Shown one piece after another: positions 3,501 to 25,700 of a stretch of 27,161 bases of DNA (position 1 is its first letter; the number at the start of each line of letters is the position of its first letter). The notes beneath the pieces are model-generated. The model made no database searches, was not told the DNA's origin, and saw nothing but the letters and a program-made list of their open reading frames with translations. Source of the stretch: a virus; IMG/VR virus record IMGVR_UViG_3300042485_002191, positions 1 through 27,161 of that record, one strand, 5' to 3'. Position numbers and translations under genes: made by a program.

Positions 3501-4279
3501 TTATATTTGTTTTCTATTAAATTATTCAATTGTTCTATTCTATCATACTGATGAACCAATACATATGGTGTTTCATCTTTTGTATTTATAACCAATCCCT
3601 CCTTTATAGTTAGTTGTTGTTTTTCAAATCTTTTATTGGATTTCAAAGTATCCACTTGCATTGCAAAATCGGAATTTATTTCAATCTTATCTTTTAATAA
3701 AATATTATTAATGATTAGATTTAATGCACTTTGGTCGGTAAAATGTCTCGTATCACCGGCCTGTGATACCAACCAATTCAACATCAATAAATCTTTAACC
3801 GATTTATGTTTACCTGCGATTACACCAACATTTGCTATTGTATTTGTTTTTATTGATTCCCAAAAAATAGGGCCGAAACCTTCATGAATATTTTTGTGGG
3901 CCCATGGTTCATCTTCATTTTTGATACATTCGGATGCAACTATGATTTCGGTTTTAAGATTTATATTCAACCAATCTGATGGATTTGTCTGCCAAAAAAT
4001 ATCTCTTACATCCGTTGTAATAATATGATTCCATTGTCTATCGGTTGTATCTAAAAAATACCACATATCAATCAATCGTTTCATATGTGGATGACCTATC
4101 AGTTCTGCACCCAAGCACTCCCAACCTTTTAATGATAGATACTCAATTGTTTTATTTGGTAGATTATAACATATCATTATTTTATCACCAGCAAATCCAC
4201 AATCGTTTAAGGATTCTACATATATTTTAATCTTTTCTGGCATATAGTTTGCTATTGCCGATATAACTAAGTCTTTCAT
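3497..4279 (-). CDS. Probable GT-A-fold glycosyltransferase (DVRD type)
   Basis: The 260-residue protein has an N-terminal strand (DLVISAIANY) and, after IITT, the motif DVRDIFWQ at 90-97. This is the DxD-like signature of a family of small glycosyltransferases that also end with VHQYDR, present here at 242-247. An ADP/UDP-sugar-type donor is possible but not shown. The ATG lies one base after the upstream stop (TAATATG), a junction seen repeatedly in this window. No signal peptide or membrane segment is visible, so it should act in the cytoplasm. Confidence 0.7.
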   Translation of the reverse strand: MKDLVISAIANYMPEKIKIYVESLNDCGFAGDKIMICYNLPNKTIEYLSLKGWECLGAELIGHPHMKRLIDMWYFLDTTDRQWNHIITTDVRDIFWQTNPSDWLNINLKTEIIVASECIKNEDEPWAHKNIHEGFGPIFWESIKTNTIANVGVIAGKHKSVKDLLMLNWLVSQAGDTRHFTDQSALNLIINNILLKDKIEINSDFAMQVDTLKSNKRFEKQQLTIKEGLVINTKDETPYVLVHQYDRIEQLNNLIENKYK

Positions 4280-4280
4280 A

Positions 4281-4907
4281 TTATGGAATTAATAGTACAT
4301 CTCTACCACAATCAATGGAACTATAATCAAACATAATTTCCATATCTCGTATTAATTGCTGTTCCGTATCTTTGTACCAATTGGTTTCAAATAATATATA
4401 TGGTCTTTGATTTGTGTTACACATCCAATCAAGCATTCCACGTATCACATTAACATCATGTCCTTCGGTATCTATTTTTACAAAATTAACCTTTTCAATT
4501 TTATTTTCGTTCATCCATTCTGAAAATGTTACACAATTTATAGTATACTTTTCGTGTGAGTGTATTTCCATTCCCTCTTTATAAATCTTATTGTAACCAA
4601 AATTTTCATTAGATGCTAATATTGTAACTTCGGAAGTTTCGTTACCCAATGCTTTATCAACTACTTTTATATTTGAATATTTTTCAAATTTATTTTTACA
4701 TTCACTTACTAAATATGGTACAGGTTCAAATAATATGATATTTTCTAAAAAATCATATCCCAAATCATCTAATATCATTTTACTAAATAATCCCGTATTT
4801 GCACCCACATCTACGAATGTATCACCCTTATTTAGATATGGTTTTATCAAATCAACATTGGTTTGTATTTCGGGTCTTAGCCAATTTTCCCATTCATTTA
4901 AATCCAT
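4281..4907 (-). CDS. FkbM-family SAM-dependent methyltransferase
   Basis: The protein contains the SAM-binding motif FVDVGANTG (about residues 31-39), an acidic strand-2 end in LFEPV (59-63), and the FkbM signature VKIDTEGHD (143-151), whose Asp binds metal/substrate in related enzymes. FkbM enzymes usually methylate hydroxyl groups of sugars or polyketides, which fits the surrounding glycosyltransferases. A longer reading to 4943 would use TTG and overlap the upstream gene. The ATG at 4907 gives 208 residues starting MDLNEWENW and has an A/T-rich leader (AAATTATATAATATG), so I chose it. It lies 11 bases downstream of the preceding stop. Confidence 0.85.
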   Translation of the reverse strand: MDLNEWENWLRPEIQTNVDLIKPYLNKGDTFVDVGANTGLFSKMILDDLGYDFLENIILFEPVPYLVSECKNKFEKYSNIKVVDKALGNETSEVTILASNENFGYNKIYKEGMEIHSHEKYTINCVTFSEWMNENKIEKVNFVKIDTEGHDVNVIRGMLDWMCNTNQRPYILFETNWYKDTEQQLIRDMEIMFDYSSIDCGRDVLLIP

Positions 4908-4918
4908 ATTATATAATT

Positions 4919-5671
4919 TTATTTTTTTCCGTATTTTTGCCAATCGTTATGCATAAATAATCCTTCACCATGTGCTACTTTAAAATTTTGATTTGCCCAC
5001 CAAATGGCAACTTCACCTTCCGATGTGATGTGTCCATTATTTATAAATGGTGTAACACATTCTATATAAAATTTAGTATTAAACAAACACGGATTGTTTG
5101 TCCAATTACCATATCTACTCGATGCTATATAATAATCACCATCTTTTTGTATAAATTCAGGAAATCTTTCTTCTGGATTTTCAATCCAATGAATTGTATC
5201 CAATAAGTGTGGGTATTTCATTTTATAATACGCATCAACATATTCCAATTCTTTACCATTATACATATTATAACTAAACAATGGTGCACCCGGATGTTTT
5301 CTATGCCTATATCTAACACATTTAAAATCTTTACTTAAAAAATCCAAACCATCTTTTAATCTATTGTATGTTGTTTCTTTATCTTCAATTAAATTCCAAT
5401 CATGTTCTAATATTAGAAAATTTTCAGTTTCGGCATTTTGTGCTAATTTCAAAATACCCATTCCAATTCCAATATTTTTTTGTAAACCAATAAAATTTAA
5501 ACCAAAGTGAGTTGCTATTTGAATATCTTGTGTAGTTACTTCCTGAAATAAAATAGTAACATCATTTACCATATCAAATAAACCATTATTATGATATGTT
5601 GTTAATGTATCCACTAATACCTGTCCACTATGCCAAGATAATATACCTATACTAATTGGTAATTTTTCCAT
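4919..5671 (-). CDS. Family-2-like glycosyltransferase
   Basis: The 250-residue protein has the GT-A opening strand ISIGILSWHSG (6-16). The NIGIGMGILKLAQNA segment (66-80) matches the donor-binding N-x-G region of family 2 enzymes, and LILEHDW (86-92) takes the place of the usual DxD with an E-x-D version. The C-terminal half has aromatic segments such as VAIWWANQNF. The substrate cannot be inferred. The start ATG follows the preceding stop by 3 bases (TAATATATG). The altered DxD may mean a different metal geometry or a non-canonical donor. Confidence 0.7.
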   Translation of the reverse strand: MEKLPISIGILSWHSGQVLVDTLTTYHNNGLFDMVNDVTILFQEVTTQDIQIATHFGLNFIGLQKNIGIGMGILKLAQNAETENFLILEHDWNLIEDKETTYNRLKDGLDFLSKDFKCVRYRHRKHPGAPLFSYNMYNGKELEYVDAYYKMKYPHLLDTIHWIENPEERFPEFIQKDGDYYIASSRYGNWTNNPCLFNTKFYIECVTPFINNGHITSEGEVAIWWANQNFKVAHGEGLFMHNDWQKYGKK

Positions 5672-5674
5672 ATA

Positions 5675-6352
5675 TTATTTTTTAATATAACTTCCCCATA
5701 TAAAGAAGTTTGCATTTTTGTTATTAAATTCTTCCAAACCATTTTCAGCAATAGCATCTTTAATTACATCATATTCAGTTTCAAATCCATAAGGCCATTG
5801 CCAATATTCAGTTGCAATTTTCCAACTTTGTTCATCTTGTTTATAATCATGTAAAATAACAATGTCATCCTTTTTAAGATATTTAGAAAACTCATTAAAT
5901 TCTTTTGTTTTATTTCCACCATCACATATTAATAATGTTCTGCCAGGTTGTTTTATTAAATCTACAATTTCATTATAATATTTTTCTTCAAAACAATCTC
6001 CAATTCTAAAATCAATATCACTTCTTTGTTGTTTTGCCATATTAATTGATGGTTCAATATCATATGATGTAAAGTTTGCACCTTCTTTTTTAGATTCAAA
6101 AATATAACTAGATAATCCACCATTATAAGAGCCAATTTCAACTATATTATCAAAGTTACTTAAAAAATCTCTATTAAAAAATAAATAAATTCCCAATACT
6201 TGTGATATTTGAATACCATTGTAATAATTTAATCTATAAAATGGATGTGATGCATGCCAATTTGTAATTTCTGAAAATTGTATTTTATTACTTATATGAT
6301 TGTTCATTAAGTAATTTAACATTTGTGAATAAAAGTCAAAGTTTTCTTTCAT
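5675..6352 (-). CDS. Class I SAM-dependent methyltransferase (TylF/CmcI-like)
   Basis: The 225-residue protein shows a Rossmann SAM site EIGSYNGGLSS (72-82), an acidic residue after strand 2 in SYDIEP (96-101), and a strand-4/5 region LLICDGG (140-146) followed by DDIVILHDY (162-170). This D...HD layout resembles the macrocin O-methyltransferase and cephalosporin hydroxylase families, where the acids bind a metal beside the sugar hydroxyl. It is likely an O- or N-methyltransferase acting on a glycan or sugar nucleotide. The ATG is one base after the upstream stop (TAATATG), and the gene lies between two glycosyltransferases. The exact family is uncertain. Confidence 0.75.
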   Translation of the reverse strand: MKENFDFYSQMLNYLMNNHISNKIQFSEITNWHASHPFYRLNYYNGIQISQVLGIYLFFNRDFLSNFDNIVEIGSYNGGLSSYIFESKKEGANFTSYDIEPSINMAKQQRSDIDFRIGDCFEEKYYNEIVDLIKQPGRTLLICDGGNKTKEFNEFSKYLKKDDIVILHDYKQDEQSWKIATEYWQWPYGFETEYDVIKDAIAENGLEEFNNKNANFFIWGSYIKK

Positions 6353-6353
6353 A

Positions 6354-6980
6354 TTATTTATTTTTATTTTTTATTTTTTCCCATTCAATTCTATCATTCT
6401 CTTTTATTGCATTAAATTCTACAAGGTCGGAAGTTGTTGACATTTCGGTTACTATTGTAAAGTTATGCAATACCCATTTTGGATATGGATTAATTTCAGT
6501 CATAAAATCATCATTATACCAAACTTTTAATTCCTCCGGTATAGGAATCCAATATTTTTTTTGTGTTAATATAAATGAACCCCAACCCCACGGACGAATT
6601 CCTTCTAGTTTTGATAAACCAGGTATTTCATCGTAAGGTTTATTATAGTTATCGGATGCCTGGCCAACTATACCTTCTATTTGATTTACTAAAAATAAAC
6701 CCAATATGTTTGGATTGAAATTGATATCATCGTTACAAATTGCAATATGTTCATTTTTTGCAATCTCTACACCCAAATTCCAAGCTGGACTAACATATAT
6801 GTTTTCTTTAACCTGTATTAATTTTACTTTATCCAATGCTTCATAGTATTCAAAATATTTACTGGCATTATCTATTAAAATAATTTCATCTACAAATTCG
6901 GAACTAATTAAATCCTTCAATAATTGATGAATTCTATTTGATTTCCAAAGAGTTGGTATTATTACTGAAAATTTATTCAT
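6354..6980 (-). CDS. Family-2 glycosyltransferase
   Basis: The 208-residue protein is a compact GT-A enzyme: opening strand FSVIIPTLWKS (4-14), LIDNAS at 35-40, the acceptor-side segment VSPAWNLGV (63-71) and a DxD-type site ICNDDINF (81-88). This is the arrangement of small rhamnosyl-type family 2 transferases, but the sugar is not deducible. A GWGSFIL segment follows near 132. There is no transmembrane segment, so it should be cytoplasmic. It overlaps the upstream DUF3431 gene by 8 bases. Confidence 0.8.
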   Translation of the reverse strand: MNKFSVIIPTLWKSNRIHQLLKDLISSEFVDEIILIDNASKYFEYYEALDKVKLIQVKENIYVSPAWNLGVEIAKNEHIAICNDDINFNPNILGLFLVNQIEGIVGQASDNYNKPYDEIPGLSKLEGIRPWGWGSFILTQKKYWIPIPEELKVWYNDDFMTEINPYPKWVLHNFTIVTEMSTTSDLVEFNAIKENDRIEWEKIKNKNK

Positions 6981-7584
6981 TTATATCATAATTTAAATCA
7001 AAAATATATGGTTCCAATCTTTCAATTACCCAAGGGGCTTGTTCATTTGTTTCTAATATATTCAAAACTTTTTTATAAAAGTTAAGTGGTCTTTTTTGTA
7101 TATGTTGTTTTGTTGCACAAAAATGACCAGTTGGAGTAAATGTTATCGTATCAGGACAATCCGATTTAAATAATTGATTCCAAATAGTTGGAATATCTAA
7201 ACCCTCATGATGTGGTGCACCATTTTTATCACAGGTTAATTTTCCACCATATTGAGTACAATAAAACCAACATTCTTCAAAATCTTGTACCGCGTTTTGC
7301 TTTAAAGTTTGAATATTACCATTCATAATATCAATATAATTGTGAACATGGTCTTGAAAATAATCCTGTGAGGTGAACGTATAGTTTGCCAAGTTATTGT
7401 AATTATTAACAATATGATAAAAGAATGTATGAACATCTCTACCAACATTATTTTCTAAATAGATTTCATCAGCTAAATCATAATTAGTACCTTTTCTATA
7501 AACTGTTACTTTTATGTCTTTATTTAAATTATTTATCCAATAGTGATAATCTCTATCATATGCCGATATAACTACTTCTTTCAT
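6973..7584 (-). CDS. DUF3431-like protein
   Basis: The 203-residue protein carries the core signature of DUF3431: NNVGRDVHTFFYHIVNNY (45-62), then NLANYTFTSQD, matching the family pattern N.GRE.hTYL.hI..nY..L...t.F.Q. The biochemical role of the family is not known to me; its members are common in fungi and also occur in bacterial sugar loci. Its place inside a glycosylation island, with a 4-base overlap (ATGA) with the RmlD-like gene upstream, suggests a role in glycan processing or transfer. A conserved E/D-rich C-terminus (RLEPYIFDLNYD) follows an aromatic region. No signal peptide is visible. Confidence 0.65.
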   Translation of the reverse strand: MKEVVISAYDRDYHYWINNLNKDIKVTVYRKGTNYDLADEIYLENNVGRDVHTFFYHIVNNYNNLANYTFTSQDYFQDHVHNYIDIMNGNIQTLKQNAVQDFEECWFYCTQYGGKLTCDKNGAPHHEGLDIPTIWNQLFKSDCPDTITFTPTGHFCATKQHIQKRPLNFYKKVLNILETNEQAPWVIERLEPYIFDLNYDINE

Positions 7585-8255
7585 TGTATTGATTTTTTTA
7601 ATTTTGAAACATCCATAGATGTATTGTTTGGTACATACTCCGGCTTTCCAGCTGGCTTTACATTTTTATTAGTTTGTTTTGCCAAATCAAACATAGATTT
7701 GAATTCGGTTCCTACATTAAATATACCAAAATTATTTGACATAACCAAATTAATTATTAAAGATGATATAACATCTACATAATCAAAATTTCCCCATTGG
7801 TCATCCCATGCCCTTTCATATGGAAATGGATTTGGTTTATGAGTACCTTTACAAATTAAATAATTATTTGATTTTAATTCAATATACGCGTCTGCCAAAA
7901 GTTTGGTATATGAGTACCAATTATTACCATGAACCGGTATATCATTTTCCGAAACTTCTGAATTAGAATTTGTATAAACATAATCGGTTGATATGTGGAC
8001 TAATTTAATATTTTGATTATTACAATAATCGACCAAATCAGCTACCGCTTTATAATTTACATTCCAATTATTTTCTTTATCGTTTGAATATGTGTTAGTA
8101 AATGCTATACAATTAATAATAACATCATACCCATGAAAATTAAAATCATTTTTAGTTATATCGAACCCATCTTTTTTACGAGATATATAATCCCAATTAG
8201 TTTGCTTAACTATTTCGGAACCAAGTAACCCATCTCCCAGAACCAATACCTTCAT
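7581..8255 (-). CDS. RmlD-like NAD(P)-dependent sugar-nucleotide reductase
   Basis: The 224-residue protein is a short-chain dehydrogenase/reductase of the RmlD type. It has the dinucleotide loop GDGLLG (7-12), STDYVY (89-94) with the catalytic Thr/Ser region, and the YSYTK motif with Y114 and K118 in Y-x3-K spacing. RmlD reduces the 4-keto group of deoxysugar nucleotides; homologues do the same in dideoxysugar pathways. At 224 residues it is clearly shorter than RmlD (about 290), lacking part of the substrate-binding C-terminus. It overlaps the RfbH-like gene by one base (TAATG), so the two are probably made together and may act in sequence. The exact substrate is unknown. Confidence 0.75.
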   Translation of the reverse strand: MKVLVLGDGLLGSEIVKQTNWDYISRKKDGFDITKNDFNFHGYDVIINCIAFTNTYSNDKENNWNVNYKAVADLVDYCNNQNIKLVHISTDYVYTNSNSEVSENDIPVHGNNWYSYTKLLADAYIELKSNNYLICKGTHKPNPFPYERAWDDQWGNFDYVDVISSLIINLVMSNNFGIFNVGTEFKSMFDLAKQTNKNVKPAGKPEYVPNNTSMDVSKLKKSIQ

Positions 8256-9541
8256 TATTTGAACTTTTTAATAACTTCTTCAATATAATCAAATACCAAA
8301 TCGGTATAATGTGGTGCTGCCCCAATAAAGAACACTTTATCTAATACTTTATTTGCTTCTGGGTAGTTTTTAAAATCATCTAAAAATGAATATCCTGGAT
8401 GTAATAAAATATTTCCTGCAAAGTAGTTTCTTGTTTGGATTTTGTTTTTTTCCAAAAATTCAACTAATCTGTGTTTTAATCCTGGTTCATCACAAATGAA
8501 TGGAGTTCCAAACCAACATGGGTCAGCTTTATCCAATTTAGATGGTGCTCTCAATCCAGGTATGTTATCAACAAATATTTGAGTAAGTCTTTCTTTACTT
8601 CTCTTTCTATTTACTTCAATCTCATCCAATTTTTCTAATTGAACAATTCCAATTGCTCCTTGTAAATCCAATGGTTTTAAGTTGTAACCCATATGGCTGA
8701 AAACATATTTATGGTCAATTACACCATCGTAATTTTCTAACCATTTGTCAAATCTATTTCCACAAGTTCCACATGATAATAAGTTTGCAGAACCAATACA
8801 ATAACAATCTCTACCCCACCATGAATAACTTACAAACAATGCCTTTAATTCATCATCATTCGTGCAAATCATTCCACCTTCTCCTGTCGAAATATGGTGT
8901 GCAGGATAGAATGAATTTGAAAAGGCAACATAGTAGTCAGTTAATGGTTTATCGTTCCATTTTGTACCCAAAGAATCACAATTATCACCAATTATCTTCA
9001 AATCATACTTATCAGCAATCTCTTGCAATCTATCCATATCTGGAGGATTACCCAAAACAGGTGATACGAATATACCCTTTGTTTTTTCAGTAATTTTTGA
9101 TTCTATTTGGTTTAAGTCAAAGTTTAATGTATCCCATTCAATATCTAAAAATATTGGTTTCAATCTATGTTGATATAATACTGAAATTGTAGTTGCAAAT
9201 CCAACTGGAGATACGATAATTTCATCATCATCTGCCCAATTAAATCTTTTCTTTAATGCAGCAATCAATACCAAGTTAGCAGAACTACCTGAGTTTACCA
9301 TATGAGAATGTTTAACATTAACTCTCGTACTGAATAGGTTTTCAAATTTATAAACTCTTTCTCCTGCAGTAATCCACTTTCCATTTAAGAATGTGTCAAT
9401 TGCTGTTTCTATTTCTCTGTTATCCCAATAAGGACCAGAATAGTAAATTGGTGTTTTACCCGCTTCAAAACTTTTAGCGTTGTAAATGTATGGAGCTACG
9501 TGATTTCCTACCAATCCACGTATATTACTTAAATCTATCAT
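8255..9541 (-). CDS. rfbH: RfbH/E1-type CDP-4-keto-6-deoxyglucose 3-dehydrase (DegT family)
   Basis: The 428-residue protein belongs to the DegT/DnrJ/EryC1/StrS fold, with GSSANL (85-90) and GDNCDSLG (185-192). In the position normally held by the PLP lysine it reads SFYPAHHISTGEGG (210-223), so His215 replaces Lys. This is the hallmark of the PMP-dependent 3-dehydrases E1/RfbH, which remove the C3 hydroxyl. It also has C188, C246 and C248 in exactly the C-x57-C-x-C spacing known for the [2Fe-2S] site of E1, with further Cys257 and Cys260 (CGTCGNRF). E1 makes the 3-deoxy intermediate of 3,6-dideoxyhexoses. No E3-type reductase is visible here, so the electron donor would have to come from elsewhere. 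Confidence 0.9.
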   Translation of the reverse strand: MIDLSNIRGLVGNHVAPYIYNAKSFEAGKTPIYYSGPYWDNREIETAIDTFLNGKWITAGERVYKFENLFSTRVNVKHSHMVNSGSSANLVLIAALKKRFNWADDDEIIVSPVGFATTISVLYQHRLKPIFLDIEWDTLNFDLNQIESKITEKTKGIFVSPVLGNPPDMDRLQEIADKYDLKIIGDNCDSLGTKWNDKPLTDYYVAFSNSFYPAHHISTGEGGMICTNDDELKALFVSYSWWGRDCYCIGSANLLSCGTCGNRFDKWLENYDGVIDHKYVFSHMGYNLKPLDLQGAIGIVQLEKLDEIEVNRKRSKERLTQIFVDNIPGLRAPSKLDKADPCWFGTPFICDEPGLKHRLVEFLEKNKIQTRNYFAGNILLHPGYSFLDDFKNYPEANKVLDKVFFIGAAPHYTDLVFDYIEEVIKKFK

Positions 9542-10400
9542 ATGCTGTTATTAATCTATCTACTACTTGTACTTGTGTATAATTATGTAATACTTTCATC
9601 ATTCCATTGTGTGCAATTCGTTCTCTCTCCTCTTCGTTTTCGTTATAGTAATTCATCTTCTCAATACAATCAAACATATCATTGTATAAAATAATATCTT
9701 CACCATCTATAAATAATTCTTCCAAACCTCTACTGATATCCAACTTATCCGTCAATACCATTTTACCACAAGCCATACCTTCAAATATTCTACGGGTTAT
9801 TTCACCCCATCTACTATTTTGAATCACTATCAATCCTTTATTCAAAAATTCAGTATGTTGTTTTGCATCCATACCATTTTGATTTCCAATTGCACCTTCT
9901 GCCCAATGTGTAAGATAATCTAAAAATTCAGAACCACCTCTACCTCTACTTGTTACACCCACATATTCAGGTTCTAAATTCATTGGAAACTGTACCATTG
10001 TATCTGCCCAATGTGGAACCCAATCACAATCAATACCTCTACTTCTATATTCGTATGCCGATACTCTATCCGGAGTAATTGTATAATGAAAACGATTTGC
10101 TTTTGGATAATTTCTTTCAAAGTTTTGTGGGTCATCTCCACTTTCTTGTATCCAACATGCACTTGGTTTTAAATCTTTATCTAAATATGGTGAATCAATT
10201 CTACCCCAATCCATAAACAACACAATATCCGTTGGAATGTCTTGTTGAATCCACAATTGTAATGCAGAATCATCGGTTGCCGTAATCGATACTATTTCAG
10301 TTTCCCAACCTCTCTCCTTAAACTCATTGAGTAAAGACAAAGGTGTTGACCAGGTTTCATTTGGAGTATGATTATATATGAATGTTATTTTATTTCGCAT
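9525..10400 (-). CDS. GT-B-fold glycosyltransferase (CgeB/Glycos_transf_1_2-like)
   Basis: The 291-residue protein starts ITFIYNHTPNETWSTPLSLL, typical of a GT-B N-domain. Its C-terminal half has the family signature RRIFEGMACGKMVLTDK (about 207-223), then ISRGLEELFIDGEDIILYND. The E at the start of this motif is the usual contact to the nucleotide-sugar phosphate or ribose. It lacks a long N-domain, so it is smaller than most GT-B enzymes. It overlaps the RfbH gene by 17 bases, which suggests coupled translation of sugar synthesis and transfer. Substrate unknown. Confidence 0.8.
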   Translation of the reverse strand: MRNKITFIYNHTPNETWSTPLSLLNEFKERGWETEIVSITATDDSALQLWIQQDIPTDIVLFMDWGRIDSPYLDKDLKPSACWIQESGDDPQNFERNYPKANRFHYTITPDRVSAYEYRSRGIDCDWVPHWADTMVQFPMNLEPEYVGVTSRGRGGSEFLDYLTHWAEGAIGNQNGMDAKQHTEFLNKGLIVIQNSRWGEITRRIFEGMACGKMVLTDKLDISRGLEELFIDGEDIILYNDMFDCIEKMNYYNENEEERERIAHNGMMKVLHNYTQVQVVDRLITAYDRFK

Positions 10401-11019
10401 ATTCTTCTCTTTTAAATAAAATTGAATAATGGTTTTCTCCCTCTCTATTATACGATGAGTATGGTTTCCAATCTATTCCGTTTTGAATATAATCAACTTC
10501 GGCATTAAATCTATTTTTCCTTACTCCGTCCATTTTTATTGTTTTTAAATATGATGATTTTGCCCACCAAAAATTACCAGAATACAATTTCCATTTTCCG
10601 GCAGTTCCTAATAAAACACCATATGTATTATAATCGGTTTTTTCAAAAATTTTAAATATATTTTTTACTTTTTCAATATTAAAATAATTCATAAGATGTC
10701 TCCAACTTACTACATTTTCTAAGTTTTGTTTTGATGCACCCTTTGTATGAATATACAAAATATAATCGGAATCACCAAACTTTTCTTTATCTTTTTCTAT
10801 TAAATCTAATGTTACAAATTCATTACCTCTAGACCTCACATCTCTAATTTTTTCAAATTTATTAATAATATAATCTATTGAAGTATTATCCTCTGCAATA
10901 GAAATCCCCACATTTAATATGTAAGGAAAATCAAAATGTTTTTTTATTAGATTTAATTGTTCATCTATTATAGATTCAACACCATCAATTGCATATATGT
11001 GATAGTATATGTGAACCAT
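10390..11019 (-). CDS. Putative glycosyltransferase with YIHTKG motif
   Basis: The 209-residue protein opens HIYYHIYAIDG and has YILYIHTKGAS (86-96), WRHLMNYF (106-113) and GNFWWAKSSYL (148-158). Paired HTKG and WR.mmYF motifs occur in glycosyltransferase-like proteins of capsule and rhamnan loci; the xxYIHTKG strand seems to take the DxD position. I assign it only as a putative transferase. It overlaps the next gene by 11 bases and the previous one by one base (TAATG), so it lies firmly within the operon. No membrane segment is visible. Confidence 0.6.
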   Translation of the reverse strand: MVHIYYHIYAIDGVESIIDEQLNLIKKHFDFPYILNVGISIAEDNTSIDYIINKFEKIRDVRSRGNEFVTLDLIEKDKEKFGDSDYILYIHTKGASKQNLENVVSWRHLMNYFNIEKVKNIFKIFEKTDYNTYGVLLGTAGKWKLYSGNFWWAKSSYLKTIKMDGVRKNRFNAEVDYIQNGIDWKPYSSYNREGENHYSILFKREEYAK

Positions 11020-11642
11020 TATAAAGTATCGTAATAATTATTCTGTCTTTCTTGTCTTTCGATTGTCTTTGGATGTTTGATACAATATATCTCTTCAGCT
11101 GGAAAATTTGTATAAGATTCAAATCCTACTATTCTTTCATGTACTTTACCACTCCAACCGATTTTGTCAGAGTTTTTATAGATACGAGTCTGAACATCGG
11201 GAAAGTTTACCCATCCTTTCTCATTTACATTCCATCCCCATTTTTGAATATGAGATTGAGTTAAACCTTCAACAGTATTAATTCTAGGAACAACAATCAT
11301 ATCCTTATCGGTATTTACATCCAATAATGCTTCCATATTTACAATCAAATCAGGCATAAGATATTCATCAGCATCCAATTGAAATATCCACTCACCTTTA
11401 CATTGTGAGTTTAATAAATTTTTCCATTGTGCAAAATCATTATCAAATTCCGATTCGATAAGTGTAATGTGGTCTGCATTAGCTTGTAGTTCTAAATACT
11501 CTACTAATTCTATTGGAGCTTTCGGTGTATCTAATAGGACTACTATTTCCGAATTTTCTTCTTTATAGTTTAATAATTGTCCTACCAATCTAATCGTTTC
11601 TTCGACTTCATTACAAGCCGTTATTGCGTAACTTAATTTCAT
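11019..11642 (-). CDS. Family-2 glycosyltransferase
   Basis: Starting from the ATG at 11642, the 207-residue protein opens MKLSYAITACNE, the expected first strand of a GT-A domain, and has the metal site QLDADEYL (88-95). Later segments include RIYKN and KVHERIVG, a pattern seen in lipopolysaccharide core transferases of the WaaE/KdtX type. A longer ATG reading to 11678 would add 12 residues and overlap the upstream gene by 37 bases. The inner ATG overlaps the upstream stop by one base (TAATG), matching other junctions here, so I prefer it. Confidence 0.8.
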   Translation of the reverse strand: MKLSYAITACNEVEETIRLVGQLLNYKEENSEIVVLLDTPKAPIELVEYLELQANADHITLIESEFDNDFAQWKNLLNSQCKGEWIFQLDADEYLMPDLIVNMEALLDVNTDKDMIVVPRINTVEGLTQSHIQKWGWNVNEKGWVNFPDVQTRIYKNSDKIGWSGKVHERIVGFESYTNFPAEEIYCIKHPKTIERQERQNNYYDTL

Positions 11643-12010
11643 TAAAATACTTTTTCGTTTGATGTTGTATAACTCCATGCAGAACCACTCGGATATCCAT
11701 ATGCAGTTGATGTTGTTCCAAATCCAAATGATGGATTAGCAATTGTAATTGAACCAACACCTGGTGTTGTTGTTATTGTTGTTCCAGATGAACCACTACC
11801 ACAAGTTATCTTAAATGGATTGTATGGGTCTGTTGGTGGTGGTGTAATAAATGTATTTGGTGTTCCCCATCCACCTATACCGATTGGAGTTCCATCGTTA
11901 ACTTTTGATAACTTTTCTTTTAATAAATCCCACTGCTTTGGAGTAATATTAAATTCATGTACTCCTTCTGTAAATCCTTTTAACCAAAGGACAAATTCTT
12001 TTGATGTCAT
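11642..12010 (-). CDS. Small phage protein with Gly/Ser/Thr-rich tail
   Basis: The 122-residue protein has two parts. Residues 1-38 (MTSKEFVLWLKGFTEG, then ITPKQWDLLKEKL) form two or three amphipathic helices resembling a short N-terminal module I have seen in small proteins of several tailed phages. Residues 40-122 are low complexity, rich in Gly, Ser, Thr, Pro and aromatic residues (GIGGWGTPNTF, GSGSSGTTI, SFGFGTTSTAYGYPSG). The tail resembles a flexible or adhesive surface region and has many Ser/Thr that could be glycosylated. No enzyme motif is visible. It lies between glycosyltransferases, so it could be their target, but this is speculation. Confidence 0.6.
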   Translation of the reverse strand: MTSKEFVLWLKGFTEGVHEFNITPKQWDLLKEKLSKVNDGTPIGIGGWGTPNTFITPPPTDPYNPFKITCGSGSSGTTITTTPGVGSITIANPSFGFGTTSTAYGYPSGSAWSYTTSNEKVF

Positions 12011-12012
12011 AA

Positions 12013-12486
12013 CTATTTATTTTTTAATTGAGATTTTTTATCTATACCTATTACATTTTTATTTTTTGGTGTAAGTTGATTTACATCCATATCCAATTCT
12101 ATAATTTGGCCAAATCCACTAATCTTATAAGTTCTATATGAATCATTTGAAACAACTGGAACTTTTGATACAACAGAAGAGTAAAACTTTTTTGCACCTC
12201 CTTTCATTTCCAATAATTCGGTATCTTCATTTATAAATTTACCAAAAAATCTTTTTATAATTTGTGGATTTACATTTGAAACTTTTACAGCATGAACTAT
12301 ATCTTTTGATGCTGATGCAAATAATGTGTAGATTATTGGTGCATTTGTTTCTGTATATTTGCCTTTCGTTCCATCAATATATTCGTATTCCTTAATTAAA
12401 TAAAATCTACCCCTTGTTATTTTTTTAGGATTTATATAATTTCTTTCGTCTATGAATTTACGATATATTGGATTATAATTTGGCAT
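12013..12486 (-). CDS. Unknown protein of 157 residues
   Basis: I do not recognise a family. The protein is Lys-rich and basic, with a beta-rich look: RGRFYLIKEYEYI, APIIYTLFASASKDIVHAV and YRTYKISGFGQIIELDMDV are probable strands. Residues 70-85 (NVNPQIIKRFFGKF) look helical. There is no signal peptide, membrane span or cysteine cluster. It is translated from an ATG overlapping the upstream glycosyltransferase stop (TAATG) and is followed 2 bases later by the Gly/Ser/Thr-rich gene. The strand-rich fold and position could suit a small virion or baseplate-associated protein, but nothing in the sequence proves that. Confidence 0.55.
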   Translation of the reverse strand: MPNYNPIYRKFIDERNYINPKKITRGRFYLIKEYEYIDGTKGKYTETNAPIIYTLFASASKDIVHAVKVSNVNPQIIKRFFGKFINEDTELLEMKGGAKKFYSSVVSKVPVVSNDSYRTYKISGFGQIIELDMDVNQLTPKNKNVIGIDKKSQLKNK

Positions 12487-13754
12487 TATTTATTTAACGT
12501 TTTCAATTTTGGTAATTGTAATTGTTGAAATTTTGGTTGTATCTTAGTATAAATACCATACTGATTTAAAATACTATCAAATCCTTCAGTCATTTTTGTT
12601 AGACTAAAATTTGCTAAATTATATTTTTTTAATTTAGATGATTCGGTTTTGTATTTATCATAATTCTTATAAACATCTTTGATTGAAAGTAATGCTTTTG
12701 AAATATTCACATTAAACCATTGTGATTCTTTTAATAAGAATTGGTCAGCTGCAGATTCATGTACCGGTTTCAATTCACCTTCTAATAATACTGCACCTTG
12801 TTTTAAAAAATCAATATGGCCACTCCAATTAGAAACAATTACAGGCTTTCCTGTCAAACTAAATTCTAATAGTGGTCTACCAAATCCTTCACCTTTTGTA
12901 AAATTTAACATTGCTTTTACTTTTTTATGTTCGTATAACCCATTCATTTCCGATGGAGTTAAATCACCATGTAAAAGATAAATTGGAACTGACTTATAAT
13001 CTTTACCCAATACCTCTTTGATTTTTTTAATTGTAGTTTCTCTATCCATCACACTAAATCCCGCGGAACTGGTTTTAAGAACTAATGCTGGTTTTACTTT
13101 TTCATTTTTGAAAGCCATTGCAAATGTTTTAATCATCATTCCAACATTTTTTCTATCTTCACCTAAATCACCTCTTAACCAATGTCCTACAAATAAGAAT
13201 GCAAAATCTTCTTTGATTGAATCCAATTCCGTAATATTTACAACATCTTCCGTTCCAAAATCCATCTCATCAAATCCTTCAAAAAGAATTTCAACAGGCT
13301 TTTGGATTTTATGTTGTGCAATCAATTGACCACTATTTTTGTCTTGTTCATTGTAAATTGTATCTACCAAACTTTTCTTTGAATGTTCAGATGGTACTAT
13401 AATTAAGTCCATTCTATTACAACCATGTAGCCAATCTAATGGTGAATGTGTTGTTTCGATAGCTGCAGTAATACCGATATTATAATGTCCTACTGGTTGG
13501 AATTCGTTTGGTACAGTAACCTGAATATAAATGTCAGGTTTTTGTTCAATACCCGGAATGATATTATCTACTATCCACTTATGAAATGGATTGTCATAAT
13601 TAAGTGAATCCATTGGAGTATTACCCCAACGTGTACTAATTACTTTAATTTCAAATTTATCTAATTTATAAAGAGAGTGTAATAAATCTCTCGCGTGGTC
13701 ACCATACCCACTTCTTGTTGCTACTGGTGCTTGAAATACTAATGTTGGTTTCAT
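12486..13754 (-). CDS. GT4-family glycosyltransferase
   Basis: The 422-residue GT-B enzyme has an N-domain beginning PTLVFQAPVATRSGYGDHAR (3-22), whose G-x-G turn contacts the acceptor side in family 4. The C-domain has FLFVGHWLRGDLGEDRKN near 186-203 and the E-x7-E motif EGFGRPLLE (289-297), which binds the donor nucleotide sugar. It transfers a sugar with retention of configuration. It follows the other GT4 gene by one base (TAATATG), and the two may act in succession. Length is normal for the family. Confidence 0.85.
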   Translation of the reverse strand: MKPTLVFQAPVATRSGYGDHARDLLHSLYKLDKFEIKVISTRWGNTPMDSLNYDNPFHKWIVDNIIPGIEQKPDIYIQVTVPNEFQPVGHYNIGITAAIETTHSPLDWLHGCNRMDLIIVPSEHSKKSLVDTIYNEQDKNSGQLIAQHKIQKPVEILFEGFDEMDFGTEDVVNITELDSIKEDFAFLFVGHWLRGDLGEDRKNVGMMIKTFAMAFKNEKVKPALVLKTSSAGFSVMDRETTIKKIKEVLGKDYKSVPIYLLHGDLTPSEMNGLYEHKKVKAMLNFTKGEGFGRPLLEFSLTGKPVIVSNWSGHIDFLKQGAVLLEGELKPVHESAADQFLLKESQWFNVNISKALLSIKDVYKNYDKYKTESSKLKKYNLANFSLTKMTEGFDSILNQYGIYTKIQPKFQQLQLPKLKTLNK

Positions 13755-13755
13755 A

Positions 13756-15138
13756 TTATAACTCTATTAACTTAAATTTTTGTTTTGGTTTCCAATTTTC
13801 GAATGCACCTTCCATACCATCTACTAATGATTGACACATTGCTTCTCTACTTAATTTACCTTCTCCTAAGAAATGTTTTCTACCTTTCAATCCGGCAGCT
13901 TCTCTATCTTCTTTTGGCATTTTATACCAATCCATAATTAAAGGAGTGATATCTTCAAAGTCAACTCTATCATCAAAAATATATGGAGTAGGTACTGAAC
14001 CCGTTGTTGAACGAACTGGCCAAATTGGTTTAACCCAATCTCCCCACACTACACCTGCTTTTCTGTGCCTATCGTGTAAAGAACCAATTTCAACATAATC
14101 TTCGGCAATTAGTAATTTACCCGTTCCTCTTTCTCTAAATCCACATTGGTCTTGTAATCCACCTGTAACCGTTACTATGATTGGAGTTCCTGCCATTACT
14201 GATTCTGCGGTTGCTAAACCAAATCCTTCATTAGATGCCACATTAATTGTCACATCTCCCATATTGTAAAGATAGTTCAATTGTTCTTCGGAATATCTAT
14301 TTGGTGCAAATACGACATTTGTTTCAGGTGAACAACATTCTGCAATTGTTCTTGGTAAATCTGTTCCATGTTCTTCGACAGGTTGAGTATGCATTAATAA
14401 ACATACTTTACTTCTTTCTTCAGGTCGTAATGCTTCAACAAATTTATCGAATGCTAAAATAACATCAATAGGTTGTTTTCTACGAATATTTCTATTATTC
14501 CAATATAAAACAAAATCGTATTCCTTATCACCAAATATTTCTTTTTTAAATTCTTGTGGAACTTCTACTGGTTTGTATAAGTCGGAATTGATACCATGTG
14601 GTACATAACTTACTTGCCAGTCTGCGGGTGGTGTCCAATGTTTTTCTTTATCCCAACTCCAAACTCTTTTAGTAATACCATAAGTTTGTTTTGAAATACA
14701 TCCAATCCAATCACAACTTTCGTAGTAATCTCTATTGTATTTTGGGTCTGGTAAATCATCCCAGATATGATAGAAAAATAATGGTACCGATTGACGAACT
14801 TCGTGCTCCATCTCATATAACCAAATCCAATATCTCGGGTCTGTAAAGTGTAAGATAGCGTCAGGTTTTTCAATCATCAATAATCGTCTAATTATATCGG
14901 CATTACCATAACCATCGGACGGGTAAATTTTTACATTTGCATCTTTTACACCTGTTTGTTCTCTAACACTTTCATTTAGGTCTAAAACTTTACCAGCTTC
15001 TGGATGTTTGATTGCAGCTCCTAATTGAACCCAATCATACTTATCAACAGTTCCCAACACTAATTGTTTGGAAACATTGGCAATACCACTTGCCATTCTT
15101 AAATCATCCGATAATAACAGAATCTTCTTTTTTGTCAT
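13756..15138 (-). CDS. GT4-family glycosyltransferase
   Basis: The 460-residue GT-B enzyme opens KKILLLSDDLRMASGIANVS (4-23) and has a C-domain with FVLYWNNRNIRRKQP (209-223) and the donor-binding motif NEGFGLATAE (303-312; E304 and E312 in E-x7-E spacing), then AGTPIIVTVTGG. It is the first gene of the glycosylation island in transcription order, 24 bases after the nuclease gene. That short A/T-rich gap (ATATATTTAAAAATAAGTT before the ATG) could hold a leader or weak promoter. The acceptor is unknown. It is longer than its neighbour and not a close paralogue of it outside the family motifs. Confidence 0.85.
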   Translation of the reverse strand: MTKKKILLLSDDLRMASGIANVSKQLVLGTVDKYDWVQLGAAIKHPEAGKVLDLNESVREQTGVKDANVKIYPSDGYGNADIIRRLLMIEKPDAILHFTDPRYWIWLYEMEHEVRQSVPLFFYHIWDDLPDPKYNRDYYESCDWIGCISKQTYGITKRVWSWDKEKHWTPPADWQVSYVPHGINSDLYKPVEVPQEFKKEIFGDKEYDFVLYWNNRNIRRKQPIDVILAFDKFVEALRPEERSKVCLLMHTQPVEEHGTDLPRTIAECCSPETNVVFAPNRYSEEQLNYLYNMGDVTINVASNEGFGLATAESVMAGTPIIVTVTGGLQDQCGFRERGTGKLLIAEDYVEIGSLHDRHRKAGVVWGDWVKPIWPVRSTTGSVPTPYIFDDRVDFEDITPLIMDWYKMPKEDREAAGLKGRKHFLGEGKLSREAMCQSLVDGMEGAFENWKPKQKFKLIEL

Positions 15139-21759: not shown

Positions 21760-22923
21760 TTATCTCCCCACTTCTTTTAAGTATTTTTTTCTACAATCTT
21801 CCCAAGTCATTCCAATTAAATCAATATAAAACAAACTTTCTGGTTTTATTCTATCTTCTTCATATAATTTTGTATATCTTTTGATTGCTTTATCTTTCCA
21901 CCAACGAATGGTGTAATCATCACCTTCTACAAATTTTGGTTTTAATATCAATTCTTCTTCGGTTATTTTATTACAAAGATAATCATTTCCATTCTCATAC
22001 ATTTGTGCAAAGTAAATACCTCTTTGAAATCCATGATGATATTTGGTAGGACTTATTTGAAGTTCCTTTAATATTAAATTTATAATGTTTTGTTTTGGAC
22101 CTGTGGCGTTAATTGCCTTTTCATATTTTTCTGGATACTTTTCTTTAATGTAATCGTGCCATATTTTGTAAATCCAATTATCAGGTTTTGTTCCGATTTT
22201 ACCAGCAGATTCACCCAATGTTTTCATATGAGGAATACCATTATATTGTGAAGATGCTCCGTATAAAGCGGTTGTATGCATTGCCACCATTACATCATCA
22301 TATTGTTCTTTCCACTTGTTTCTAAATGTGGGTGATGTTGTTAAAGCTGCGATTAATTTACCACCTAAGAAATTAAATCCTAATGGCTGAGTTGGTACAA
22401 TTGAAGTACCCATTGCAATACAATTTAATTTACCTTTCTTAAATTTATCTTCTTTAGTCCAACCAATAAACTCATCTCTTACTTTAACAGAAACTACATC
22501 ACTACCTAAACTAATGACACCCAATATTTTACCACTTGTTCTATCTTTTACAAAGGCTTTAAGATTACGACCTGGGTTTGCTGTAAACTCCATTGAACTA
22601 ATCAACTTTCTAACCTCAGTCCACTTTGAAACATCTTCTACCAATTCAACATATGGTTGCATGTTTTGGATTTCGGATATTGTTAATTCTTTATTAAAGA
22701 TATCTGTTGGTTTCCAAATTTTATCGTAATGTTGTTGTAAAGATGGTAGTTTCATCATAGATGTATGTAAATCCGAATTGAACTCTTGCCACTTTTTATA
22801 GAGTGTTTGTTCTTCAACTGGCATTTCGGATAACATATCCAAATTTCTTATCAATTTTTCTTTGTTTACTTCAAATACAAACTCACCACCATTTTCTATG
22901 TTACTATCCCAAAATTTATTCAT
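21760..22923 (-). CDS. DUF4338/DruA-like protein conserved in marine T4-like phages
   Basis: The 387-residue protein has a helical N-terminal third (to about 115). A core follows with KILGVISLGSDV (132-143), VRDEFIGWT (148-156), MGTSIVPTQPLGFNFLGGK (171-189) and TALYGASSQYNGI (218-230), then KTLGESAGK (234-242). RD.[FW]IGW and the Y.a..yn.i..TlGe.aGk pattern recall DUF4338, the family of Druantia DruA, and I recall closely similar proteins in marine myoviruses. Function is not established. The strand-EL/PLG-helix-SY/LYG layout runs parallel to the Mom-like proteins directly upstream, so it may share their acyltransferase-like fold. It ends 2 bases before gp43. The assignment is by motif memory and should be treated as tentative. 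Confidence 0.6.
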   Translation of the reverse strand: MNKFWDSNIENGGEFVFEVNKEKLIRNLDMLSEMPVEEQTLYKKWQEFNSDLHTSMMKLPSLQQHYDKIWKPTDIFNKELTISEIQNMQPYVELVEDVSKWTEVRKLISSMEFTANPGRNLKAFVKDRTSGKILGVISLGSDVVSVKVRDEFIGWTKEDKFKKGKLNCIAMGTSIVPTQPLGFNFLGGKLIAALTTSPTFRNKWKEQYDDVMVAMHTTALYGASSQYNGIPHMKTLGESAGKIGTKPDNWIYKIWHDYIKEKYPEKYEKAINATGPKQNIINLILKELQISPTKYHHGFQRGIYFAQMYENGNDYLCNKITEEELILKPKFVEGDDYTIRWWKDKAIKRYTKLYEEDRIKPESLFYIDLIGMTWEDCRKKYLKEVGR

Positions 22924-22951
22924 ATATGTAATATACTAAAAATTATCCAAA

Positions 22952-23755
22952 TTACCAAAACTTACTTGCAAGTTCTGTTTCAGGTGCAATTGTAGTGTGG
23001 ATTTCTATATCCTTATTAAATTCTCTTGTATCTTTTGGATAATTTTTAGGGTCGTGTTTAAGAGTTTTAAGTAATTCTCTTTTTTCTTTTTTATCTGCAC
23101 CCAATACCTGTATATATCTATGTTTCGGTGGTTCTTCCCTTCTCCAAAATTGTTTATATCCTTGCTTACCTATTTCTCTCCTAAGATGTTCCAAATTACC
23201 GCTACCCCACATTGAAAACACAGTTCTACTATGTATCCATTTATAAGGGTCGTTTGATAAAGATATTCCGTAGTTTGGCATCAATGCAATATCGGTGTTC
23301 ATTCCTTGATAAATCCAATTGGTTGCCTGATAAATTCCTCCCAAATGTTCTTGTCCGTTATCAGCGTATGAGATTAAGATTTTAATCATCTTATCATTTT
23401 CTCTAAACCACTTAAACGATTGTCCTAATGCATACGATTCAATGTTAGAACCATATCCATCGTCACAATACAATCTTGTTAATTCTAAAATATTATCTTT
23501 TGTAATTGAATCTGAAACTGAATTTGCAGCTCTTGCACCTACTGGGAAACCATAAACTAAACATCCTATAAGTTTATCACTATCTCCTAATGCATTTGAC
23601 TCATCGGTTCTATAAAATATTCCCAATGCGTATCTACAAGCCGTCCATGCGTGTGTATAGTGTTTCTTAACTATAATCTCTTTTGCAACTGCCGAACTAA
23701 TTTCTCTAACCGATACTCTACTCGTATCACAATATAACTTATTTAACTCTTTCAA
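22952..23755 (-). CDS. Mom-like DNA-modification protein, copy 1
   Basis: The 267-residue protein matches the pattern of phage Mu Mom, a GNAT-fold enzyme that turns adenine in DNA into N6-carbamoylmethyladenine. It has VKKHYTHAW (29-37), LIGCLVYG (62-69), ELTRLYCDD (91-99), NIES (104-107) and ISYAD...GGIYQATNWIYQG (128-151). It ends with PKHRYIQVLGADKK. The start is TTG: there is no nearby ATG, and the reading aligns residue for residue with the ATG of the adjacent paralogue (KLYCDTS at 6-12 in both). It overlaps that paralogue by 17 bases. Whether it modifies DNA in this phage is not shown. Confidence 0.75.
   Translation of the reverse strand: MKELNKLYCDTSRVSVREISSAVAKEIIVKKHYTHAWTACRYALGIFYRTDESNALGDSDKLIGCLVYGFPVGARAANSVSDSITKDNILELTRLYCDDGYGSNIESYALGQSFKWFRENDKMIKILISYADNGQEHLGGIYQATNWIYQGMNTDIALMPNYGISLSNDPYKWIHSRTVFSMWGSGNLEHLRREIGKQGYKQFWRREEPPKHRYIQVLGADKKEKRELLKTLKHDPKNYPKDTREFNKDIEIHTTIAPETELASKFW
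23724..23742. repeat. 19-base direct repeat shared by the two Mom-like genes (copy 1)
   Basis: The plus-strand 19-mer GTATCACAATATAACTTAT encodes the shared KLYCDT region near the start of copy 1 and is identical to 24475-24493. It is a remnant of tandem gene duplication and could serve for recombination between the copies. Confidence 0.9.
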
Positions 23756-24506
23756 TTGGTTCTAATTTTAATATTTCTTCGGTATATTCCTCCAATGTTT
23801 TTGGATATGGATATAATGGATGTTTTATATTTTTCAACAATTCCTTTTTATCTTTTTTATCTTTGCCCAAAATGTAGATATACCTATGTTTCTTTGGTTC
23901 TCGTTTTACCCAAAATGGTTTATCAATTAGTTCTTGTAATTTGAAAGGTGAGGTTGTTCCCCAATAAGGTGCCATAGTTCTACCATGTATCCATTTACCA
24001 CCTTCTTCAAATCGAAAAGCCCATGTGTCGTTGGGCCTAATACTTGTTCCTTGATATAACCAATTTGTTGCCTGATATATTTGTCCTTTATGTCCTTGTA
24101 CAGGGTCGGAGTATGATATCAATGCTCGTATTTGTTTTGCGTTTTCTTTTAACCATTCAAAAGACTTTCCGACAAACCAACTTTCAATGTTACAACCATA
24201 TCCGTCAAATACAAAAAGTCTTACTAGCTCCATCACCTCAGTTCTATCCAATGTTTCACTTATAGATGCTCCACAATGTCTACCAATTGGGTCACCATAA
24301 CAAATTACTCCAATTAGTTCCTGATTTACTCCACCAAAGAATTTATGTTCGGTTTCGTTTTCATAGAACAAACCTAATGCGTAACTAACTTTTGTCCATT
24401 GTTTTGAATAATGATGTTTTACTATTATATTCTTTGCAACTGACTTTTCTATTAACCTTACACTAAATTTGGATGTATCACAATATAACTTATCTTGTAC
24501 TTTCAT
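23739..24506 (-). CDS. Mom-like DNA-modification protein, copy 2
   Basis: The 255-residue protein is a paralogue of the gene downstream. Shared landmarks are KLYCDTS (6-12), VKHHYSKQW (29-37), ELIGVICYG (63-71), ELVRLFVFD (93-101), CNIES (105-109), ISYSDPVQGHKGQIYQATNW (130-149), KWIHGRT (171-177) and KKHRYIYILGKDKK. It is closer to the typical HY.., SYADp..GH.G.IYqA.NW pattern of Mom homologues than copy 1, which has an NGQEH variant. It starts with ATG and is first in transcription order, overlapping the small HTH gene by 17 bases. A GNAT-type transfer of a carbamoylmethyl or other acyl group to adenine is the family-based expectation. Confidence 0.77.
   Translation of the reverse strand: MKVQDKLYCDTSKFSVRLIEKSVAKNIIVKHHYSKQWTKVSYALGLFYENETEHKFFGGVNQELIGVICYGDPIGRHCGASISETLDRTEVMELVRLFVFDGYGCNIESWFVGKSFEWLKENAKQIRALISYSDPVQGHKGQIYQATNWLYQGTSIRPNDTWAFRFEEGGKWIHGRTMAPYWGTTSPFKLQELIDKPFWVKREPKKHRYIYILGKDKKDKKELLKNIKHPLYPYPKTLEEYTEEILKLEPIERVK
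24475..24493. repeat. 19-base direct repeat shared by the two Mom-like genes (copy 2)
   Basis: Identical to 23724-23742 on the same strand and in the same position relative to the coding start, supporting a tandem duplication origin. Confidence 0.9.
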
Positions 24507-24690
24507 ATGGCCATTTAACCATGTGTTTCCACGTTTCGTTTGTAACTATTTTTTTAATGTTTGCAGGTGATACTTTATAGTTCCTAGCTATTACATTAAC
24601 ATTTCTATGACCTATTTTGTATAGTTCCCTAATTTGCAAAACCTGTTCTTCCGTTAGTTTATGCATTGGATGTGCTTCACCTCTTAACAT
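24490..24690 (-). CDS. Small helix-turn-helix protein (homing-endonuclease-type DNA-binding module)
   Basis: From the ATG at 24690 the product has 66 residues; a GTG at 24717 would add nine. The core KLTEEQVLQIRELY followed by NVNVIARNYKVSPANIKKIV and WKHM is the helix-turn-helix commonly found at the end of phage HNH homing endonucleases, where it reads KLTEE...IA..f.vS...I..I..g..WkHv. Here it stands alone with no nuclease domain. It could be a remnant of such an enzyme or a small regulator of the Mom-like genes, which it overlaps by 17 bases. In phage Mu a small regulator (Com) likewise precedes mom, but Com is a zinc-finger protein, so the likeness is only positional. Confidence 0.65.
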   Translation of the reverse strand: MLRGEAHPMHKLTEEQVLQIRELYKIGHRNVNVIARNYKVSPANIKKIVTNETWKHMVKWPYESTR

Positions 24691-24727
24691 AACTCTAATA
24701 TAACTAATTTTTTCCACAATACCAAAT

Positions 24728-24991
24728 TTACTTTACTGCCTCATTGATTGCATTTACATATGCCATTTTAGATGAAAGTCCTGTAAATCTTTGTAATTCA
24801 ATACCATCTTTTACGATTATAACTGTTGGAACCGAACGAACTCCATATTCTTCGGTTATATCACTATACTCATCAATATCGTATTCTTCAAACTTTACAT
24901 TTGAATAATTACCTTTGATTTCATTCATTACTGGGGTTAATGCTCTACAAGGGCCACACCATACTGCACTAAATTTTTTGACCGTTACCAT
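24728..24991 (-). CDS. Thioredoxin
   Basis: The active site WCGPC is near residue 11 in VKKFSAVWCGPCRALTP, and the cis-proline region SVPTVIIVKDG is present, as expected for the thioredoxin fold. It likely reduces the C-terminal disulfide of the class II ribonucleotide reductase encoded in the same transcription unit. The ATG at 24991 gives 87 residues and follows an A-rich tract (AAAAACAAAACAAATG). Longer readings begin at TTG (25036) or ATG (25033, 25012) and only add an unlikely N-terminal tail that lies within the phoH gene. The chosen start still overlaps phoH by 23 bases. Confidence 0.9.
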   Translation of the reverse strand: MVTVKKFSAVWCGPCRALTPVMNEIKGNYSNVKFEEYDIDEYSDITEEYGVRSVPTVIIVKDGIELQRFTGLSSKMAYVNAINEAVK

Positions 24992-25700
24992 TTGTTTTGT
25001 TTTTAAATTCTTCATATTCTTCCAATAGGGCATCAACTACTGAATGTCTATGATTTACTAATAATGTCATCGATGCCATTTCTTTTACTTTTTTAGCTAC
25101 TCTTAATAAGAAACCAAATCCACTTTCACCCTTTTGTTTCAAATCTACTTGAGCAGTGTCTCCACATACTACCATCTTACTTCTAATACCCAATCTACTT
25201 ACAATCATTTCCATTTGTTCGTGAGTGCAGTTTTGAGCTTCATCCACAATTACAAATGAGTCTAAGAAAGTTCTACCTCTCATAAATGCAACAGGTACAA
25301 TTTCAACTTGTCCGTTTGTTAATATCTCATCTATTTTTTCTCTATTATAAAGTAGATAAAAGTTTGAATAGATTGGTTGCATCCAGGGTTCCATTTTTTC
25401 TCTAAGGTCTCCTGGTAGAAAACCAATTTCTTCTTTACTTACCGTCGGTCTTGTAATGATAATTTTACTAACCGTTTTCTTAAATAACATATCTAATGCA
25501 ATTTGACAAGCTAATAGTGTTTTACCGCTACCCGCTTTACCACTTAATATCGTTATTGCGTTACTTAAAATTTTGTCTTTAGCTTCTTTTTGTTCCTCAT
25601 TTAATTGAATTTGAAACTTAATCGGGCCCTTCTCTTTTTGTTTTTCTTCTCTAATTTTCTCTGTCAATTCTTTGTTTTTTGTTGATTGATTTTCTCCCAT
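24969..25700 (-). CDS. phoH: PhoH-like P-loop ATPase
   Basis: The 243-residue protein has Walker A GKAGSGKT (54-61), the strand IIITRPTVSKEEIGFLPGD (80-98) and Walker B VIVDEAQN (150-157), then VVCGDTAQVDL, all typical of PhoH/PhoL ATPases, which are related to the helicase core of superfamily 1. PhoH is very common in marine phages; a role in RNA metabolism or phosphate-stress response is often proposed but unproven for phages. The first 28 residues are Lys/Glu rich. It overlaps the DUF5522 gene by 37 bases at the start and thioredoxin at the end. Confidence 0.92.
   Translation of the reverse strand: MGENQSTKNKELTEKIREEKQKEKGPIKFQIQLNEEQKEAKDKILSNAITILSGKAGSGKTLLACQIALDMLFKKTVSKIIITRPTVSKEEIGFLPGDLREKMEPWMQPIYSNFYLLYNREKIDEILTNGQVEIVPVAFMRGRTFLDSFVIVDEAQNCTHEQMEMIVSRLGIRSKMVVCGDTAQVDLKQKGESGFGFLLRVAKKVKEMASMTLLVNHRHSVVDALLEEYEEFKNKTNGNGQKI

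Follow-up and report, generated by a model that had tools for sequence, protein, structure and literature searches.

Why should a phage carry two Mom-like genes in tandem and a DUF4338-like gene immediately before its DNA polymerase gene, and do the three act together? We addressed this question in a 27,161-nt virus record from IMG/VR (IMGVR_UViG_3300042485_002191), the whole of which is called the window here. An initial annotation of this DNA had proposed a three-gene hypermodification module. We consider it probable that the locus encodes two non-redundant, adenine-modifying Mom enzymes directed against host restriction, and that the DruA-type GNAT protein beside them is a separate, exchangeable accessory.

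The phage is T4-like. The closest matches do not establish the Bacteroidota host presumed in the initial annotation: gp43 finds its best counterpart in Microcystis phage Mel-JY01 (49%), Mom in Polaribacter phage P12002L (44.5%). A near-identity DNA search of deposited phages returned zero matches. The genes in this region are all on the minus strand and run in the order RNR, DUF5522, PhoH, thioredoxin, a small HTH gene, Mom1, Mom2, the DruA-type gene, gp43, clamp, and clamp loader. The two adjacent paralogues reported in the initial annotation correspond to ORFs at the coordinates given there, and every motif quoted for them (KLYCDTS, HY, ELxRL, NIES, ISY[AS]D..H.G.IYQATNW and KWIH.RT) is common to Mom1 and Mom2. 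The features considered here are:

24728-25036, minus strand: thioredoxin, conserved upstream neighbour
24490-24717, minus strand: small HTH protein of 75 aa, initiated at GTG (HTH_7 match at E 4.6e-4, which falls short of the cut-off)
23739-24506, minus strand: Mom1, Mom-family DNA modification enzyme, 255 aa
22952-23755, minus strand: Mom2, the other Mom-family paralogue, 267 aa, initiated at TTG
21760-22923, minus strand: DruA-type (DUF4338, long class) GNAT protein, 387 aa
19202-21757, minus strand: family B DNA polymerase (gp43-like), a conserved gene on the downstream side that does not belong to the modification enzymes

The Mom1 and Mom2 ORFs overlap by 17 nt (23755/23739), as do the HTH ORF (24717-24490) and the start of Mom1, and a gap of 2 nt separates the end of the DruA-type ORF from gp43. 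An upstream TTG or ATG is the sole usable start of Mom2 in nearly all relatives. Promoter and terminator scans gave scores not above those of shuffles, and an NCBIfam search yielded no match. Elsewhere, a 12-kb stretch (2598-15138), large for a phage, holds glycosyltransferase-like genes together with genes for methyltransferases (FkbM-type and others), a DegT aminotransferase and an RmlD-like reductase; one of the genes (13756-15138) also matches the GT4-conflict family. At 24969-25700, the DNA identity profile indicates that the PhoH gene is apparently absent between otherwise very similar relatives.

Mom1 and Mom2 as Mom-family proteins

The Mom identity of both proteins, first suggested from motifs, is solid. 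They are 46% identical across 253 residues (BLASTP, 8e-78), and match the Pfam Mom family (PF25680) at 1.6e-43 and 1.1e-42 over profile positions 2-202 of 202; a PHROG search likewise assigned both to Mom. In a sequence search of the PDB, Mu Mom (8bv8) was the sole match below 1e-3 (7e-7 and 5e-5 for the two Moms). The many nanobody matches to Mom1 in that search were rejected as weak chance matches. Structure comparison covered, of the two Moms, the Mom1 model alone (AlphaFold2, pLDDT 86), which matched 8bv8 with a Z of 20.9 over 191 residues, the next GNAT reaching 12.2; such a predicted fold does not by itself tell which base is modified.

The PDB title of 8bv8 names the inactive mutant S124A, and S124 of that entry corresponds by sequence to S114 of the annotated Mu protein and to S109 of Mom1. 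This serine, together with H48, Y49, R101, D139, Y149 and N153 (Mu numbering), is invariant in 71 Mom1 and 55 Mom2 sequences. Mu Mom makes N6-carbamoylmethyladenine in DNA, and from the Mu literature we take H48, Y49, R101, D139 and Y149 to be catalytic. With the catalytic set intact, Mom1 and Mom2 are, judging from sequence, apparently active Mom-family enzymes.

The DruA-type gene and its relation to Mom

The gene immediately before gp43 had been called DUF4338-like, and its product indeed matches Pfam DruA (PF14236, formerly DUF4338) at 6e-23 and 81.9 bits (curated cut-off 27), as well as the PADLOC DruA model at 1.4e-21. In a structural model (pLDDT 83), residues 85-333 form a GNAT domain with GNAT matches at Z 8-9.5, consistent with an earlier description of DUF4338 as a GNAT (PMC10853773). 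Mu Mom occupies the top row of this model's matches, tied with SpeG, and because of this tie with ordinary GNATs the fold alone does not make the DruA-type protein Mom-like. The Mom catalytic motifs (HY, R, NxxS, D and YxAxN) are absent from the long-DruA alignment, the window's protein included, and the class, again with the window's protein, retains RDxxIGW and GGKL. These features, with the chain of profiles given below, indicate that the protein is a relative of Mom, not a Mom.

Three complete genomes, those of Synechococcus phage S-SCSM2R and the Pelagibacter phages HTVC008M and Mosig, contain DruA-type genes without any Mom; in HTVC008M the gene adjoins gp43, and in S-SCSM2R it sits between clamp-loader genes. 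The close relatives of the window show 97-99% protein identity in Mom1 and mostly 89-99% in gp43, and in many of them DNA identity drops to 64-80% across DruA and the 3' portion of Mom2. In the DruA tree, several allele lineages are interleaved with those of distant phages. From these sequences, phages that are otherwise close exchange the DruA gene as a cassette, one entire allele for another, and such exchange points to a function in an arms race. Other genes also occur between Mom2, DruA and gp43 in relatives: a glycosyltransferase-like gene at 27 loci, homing-endonuclease-like genes, short DUF4338, and genes for ParB-like proteins and a GmrSD_N protein. The restriction-like and glycosyltransferase-like inserts in this slot were counted towards a role in restriction evasion.

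The DruA-type gene may encode either a modifier or a counter-defence protein. In the second case, it could act as a decoy or dominant negative that jams DruA-using host systems (Druantia type I, HerA/NurA or HerA/Shedu loci), leaving the Moms as the only modifiers of DNA. The PADLOC match fits such a role, as do the whole-allele swaps, which are expected of an arms-race gene, and the bacterial long DruAs found here, which adjoin HerA, NurA, DUF499 or Shedu genes. The replisome neighbourhood of the cyanophage gene, however, suggests a role independent of any one host system, and we rate the decoy as possible but well short of probable. Neither the DruE helicase nor other Druantia partners were present among the neighbours scanned, the largest ORF in the window being the 851-aa polymerase, and in the papers that could be read we found no description of the role of DruA in Druantia type I.

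The third protein had also been credited with an order of core segments similar to that of the Moms, a claim upheld only indirectly. BLAST detected no signal between Mom and the window's DruA-type protein, and direct Mom-DruA profile comparison gave none with narrow alignments and 11% with broader ones; the link therefore runs through short DUF4338 intermediates and is in keeping with the shared GNAT fold. Profile comparison of Mom with short DUF4338 gave a probability of 95% (E 1.7e-8), with reversed or column-shuffled control alignments all below 4%, and the motifs HY, R, N-x-x-S, D and G-x-x-Y-x-A-x-N-W succeed one another in the short proteins just as they do in Mom. Short DUF4338 and the long DruA class matched in turn at 98.8%. 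This chain of profiles apparently unites Mom and DruA in a single superfamily.

Mom profile matches were found in 15 of 198 bacterial genomes, with DUF4338 loci in 10 of the 15; one place exceeded the curated cut-off alone, and another did so together with its neighbours in the frame. A plasmid search for further DUF4338 recovered two records. The bacterial matches at DUF4338 loci and the link between Mom and short DUF4338 are, as far as we could find, new; among the papers accessible to our literature search, none connects DUF4338 with Mom. A 235-aa phage protein (L112:4746-5450) matches the DruA profile at 1.9e-26, Pfam Mom at 4.8e-5 and PHROG Mom at 3.7e-7, and is a natural link between the families.

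We suggest only tentatively, and as less likely than not, that phages of this group hold beside gp43 an exchangeable array of Mom-superfamily GNATs (long DruA, short DUF4338 and between one and three Moms), that this array gives each phage its own pattern of several adenine hypermodifications, and that DruA-type proteins, including that of Druantia, are DNA-acting GNATs sharing an ancestor with Mom. It seems unlikely that the three genes of the window form a combined hypermodification array, as in the module first proposed, in which every product is a DNA-modifying GNAT of the same superfamily with a site or group of its own. Mom, short DUF4338 and long DruA do make one homologous series, relatives have insertions of short DUF4338 genes in this array (L004, L014, L025, L073, L258, L320 and L323), and in the long DruA model an invariant GGKL opens the helix that follows a central strand, the place where GNATs bind CoA; but Mom's HY, Ser and Y..N residues are missing from the protein of the window. 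Because the third gene is without these residues, is found without Mom and is swapped independently, the three-gene module is not supported as first stated: the Mom pair, its catalytic set and its adjacency to the replisome stand, and it is the membership of the third gene that is not supported. We retain the reading of two Moms with a separate accessory.

Conservation and selection of the Mom pair

Adjacent Moms were found at 134 IMG/VR loci, representing 82 distinct pair sequences, every one overlapping or abutting. These pairs commonly adjoin gp43, and an HTH gene lies directly 5' of a Mom in 121 fetched loci (contig duplicates counted). The full order Mom1-Mom2-DruA-gp43 was recovered on 44 distinct contigs, with inserts in some. 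In 50,697 deposited phage records, the Mom1 query matched once in each of 302 records, a count from which more divergent extra copies could have escaped; all 302 being single-copy accords with the earlier impression that such a tandem pair had not been described. The pair is widespread in uncultured phages, and none was seen in the deposited phage genomes searched with Mom1.

Copy number varies among relatives. Some keep one Mom alone (L055, L063, L073, L077 and L093), so the pair is not strictly required. Three consecutive Mom genes follow an HTH gene in L306-L310, L313 and L318, and a third, diverged Mom lies upstream of RNR in L006, L007, L015, L016 and L093, or between gp43 and clamp in L097, L099, L102 and L304. 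One relative, L114, has genes for a glutamine-synthetase-like protein and a 2OG-Fe(II) oxygenase (2871-4453) upstream of its Mom pair.

Mom1 and Mom2 form separate clades (support 100/100 and 100/98) that are not sisters, and Mom2 groups weakly with the single Moms of other phages (84/87), suggesting that the pair is either old or assembled. Both genes are under strong purifying selection (median dN/dS approximately 0.04 for Mom1 and 0.09 for Mom2), and 22 positions are fixed differently between the two clades. The separate clades, purifying selection, 82 distinct pairs and invariant residues together identify a conserved, non-redundant Mom pair, in which a known enzyme stands in a new arrangement that has itself been conserved. 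Two specificities would fit the 22 paralogue-specific sites, which do not prove them.

It is very improbable that the Mom-like proteins are ordinary acetyltransferases of proteins, such as host RNA polymerase, rather than of DNA: they have a GNAT fold, and phage GNATs that modify host proteins are known (PMC7824862), but the specific Mom match lies far above those to other GNATs and the Mom-specific catalytic residues are present. Adjacency, common orientation and common family might suggest recent, redundant duplicates of which one is decaying, but the depth of the two clades, the selection on both genes and the full conservation of their catalytic residues refute this.

Proposed function and comparison with known systems

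We propose that the overlapping genes HTH-Mom1-Mom2 make up a compact set yielding two Mom-type enzymes, each probably modifying adenine N6 in double-stranded phage DNA by Mu-type carbamoylmethylation or a close variant. Gene order suggests a coupling to replication; modification around the time of DNA synthesis would keep host restriction enzymes from cutting. Thus the pair most likely protects new phage DNA through adenine hypermodification, as far as sequence can indicate. As old, non-redundant paralogues, Mom1 and Mom2 most likely differ in the sites that they recognize or, slightly, in the groups that they load, and the DruA-type GNAT, which shares their arms-race slot before gp43, would be an exchangeable accessory distinct from them, with a role in anti-defence or in modification. 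The conserved, divergent pair suggests that a single phage is able to lay down two different Mom marks, and homology between Mom and DUF4338/DruA would offer a concrete idea of DruA as a DNA-acting GNAT, with a list of candidate active-site residues.

The window's enzymes resemble Mu Mom (PDB 8bv8, PF25680) in fold (Z 20.9 for Mom1), catalytic residue set and length, and, as in Mu com-mom, a small overlapping ORF precedes them (com in Mu, the HTH ORF here). They differ in being two tandem paralogues adjoining the replicative polymerase, whereas the single mom of Mu belongs to its late region, and the upstream ORF is HTH-like and not a zinc-finger translational activator of the Com type. Com has a regulatory role in Mu and does not characterize the enzyme family. 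The DruA-type protein shares its profile match and the RDxxIGW and GGKL motifs with DruA/DUF4338 (PF14236; Druantia type I), but stands in a phage replisome context in a window containing neither DruE nor another Druantia gene. The closest deposited Mom, 44.5% identical to Mom1, is that of Polaribacter phage P12002L, in which a single copy adjoins a DNA methylase in a 48.7-kb phage. More than one Mom per phage is also a feature of jumbo phage PA5oct, for which five momylating enzymes are reported in a passage that describes no tandem pair at gp43 (PMC7824862); compared with what is described there, the pair in the window is a defined and conserved two-clade unit.
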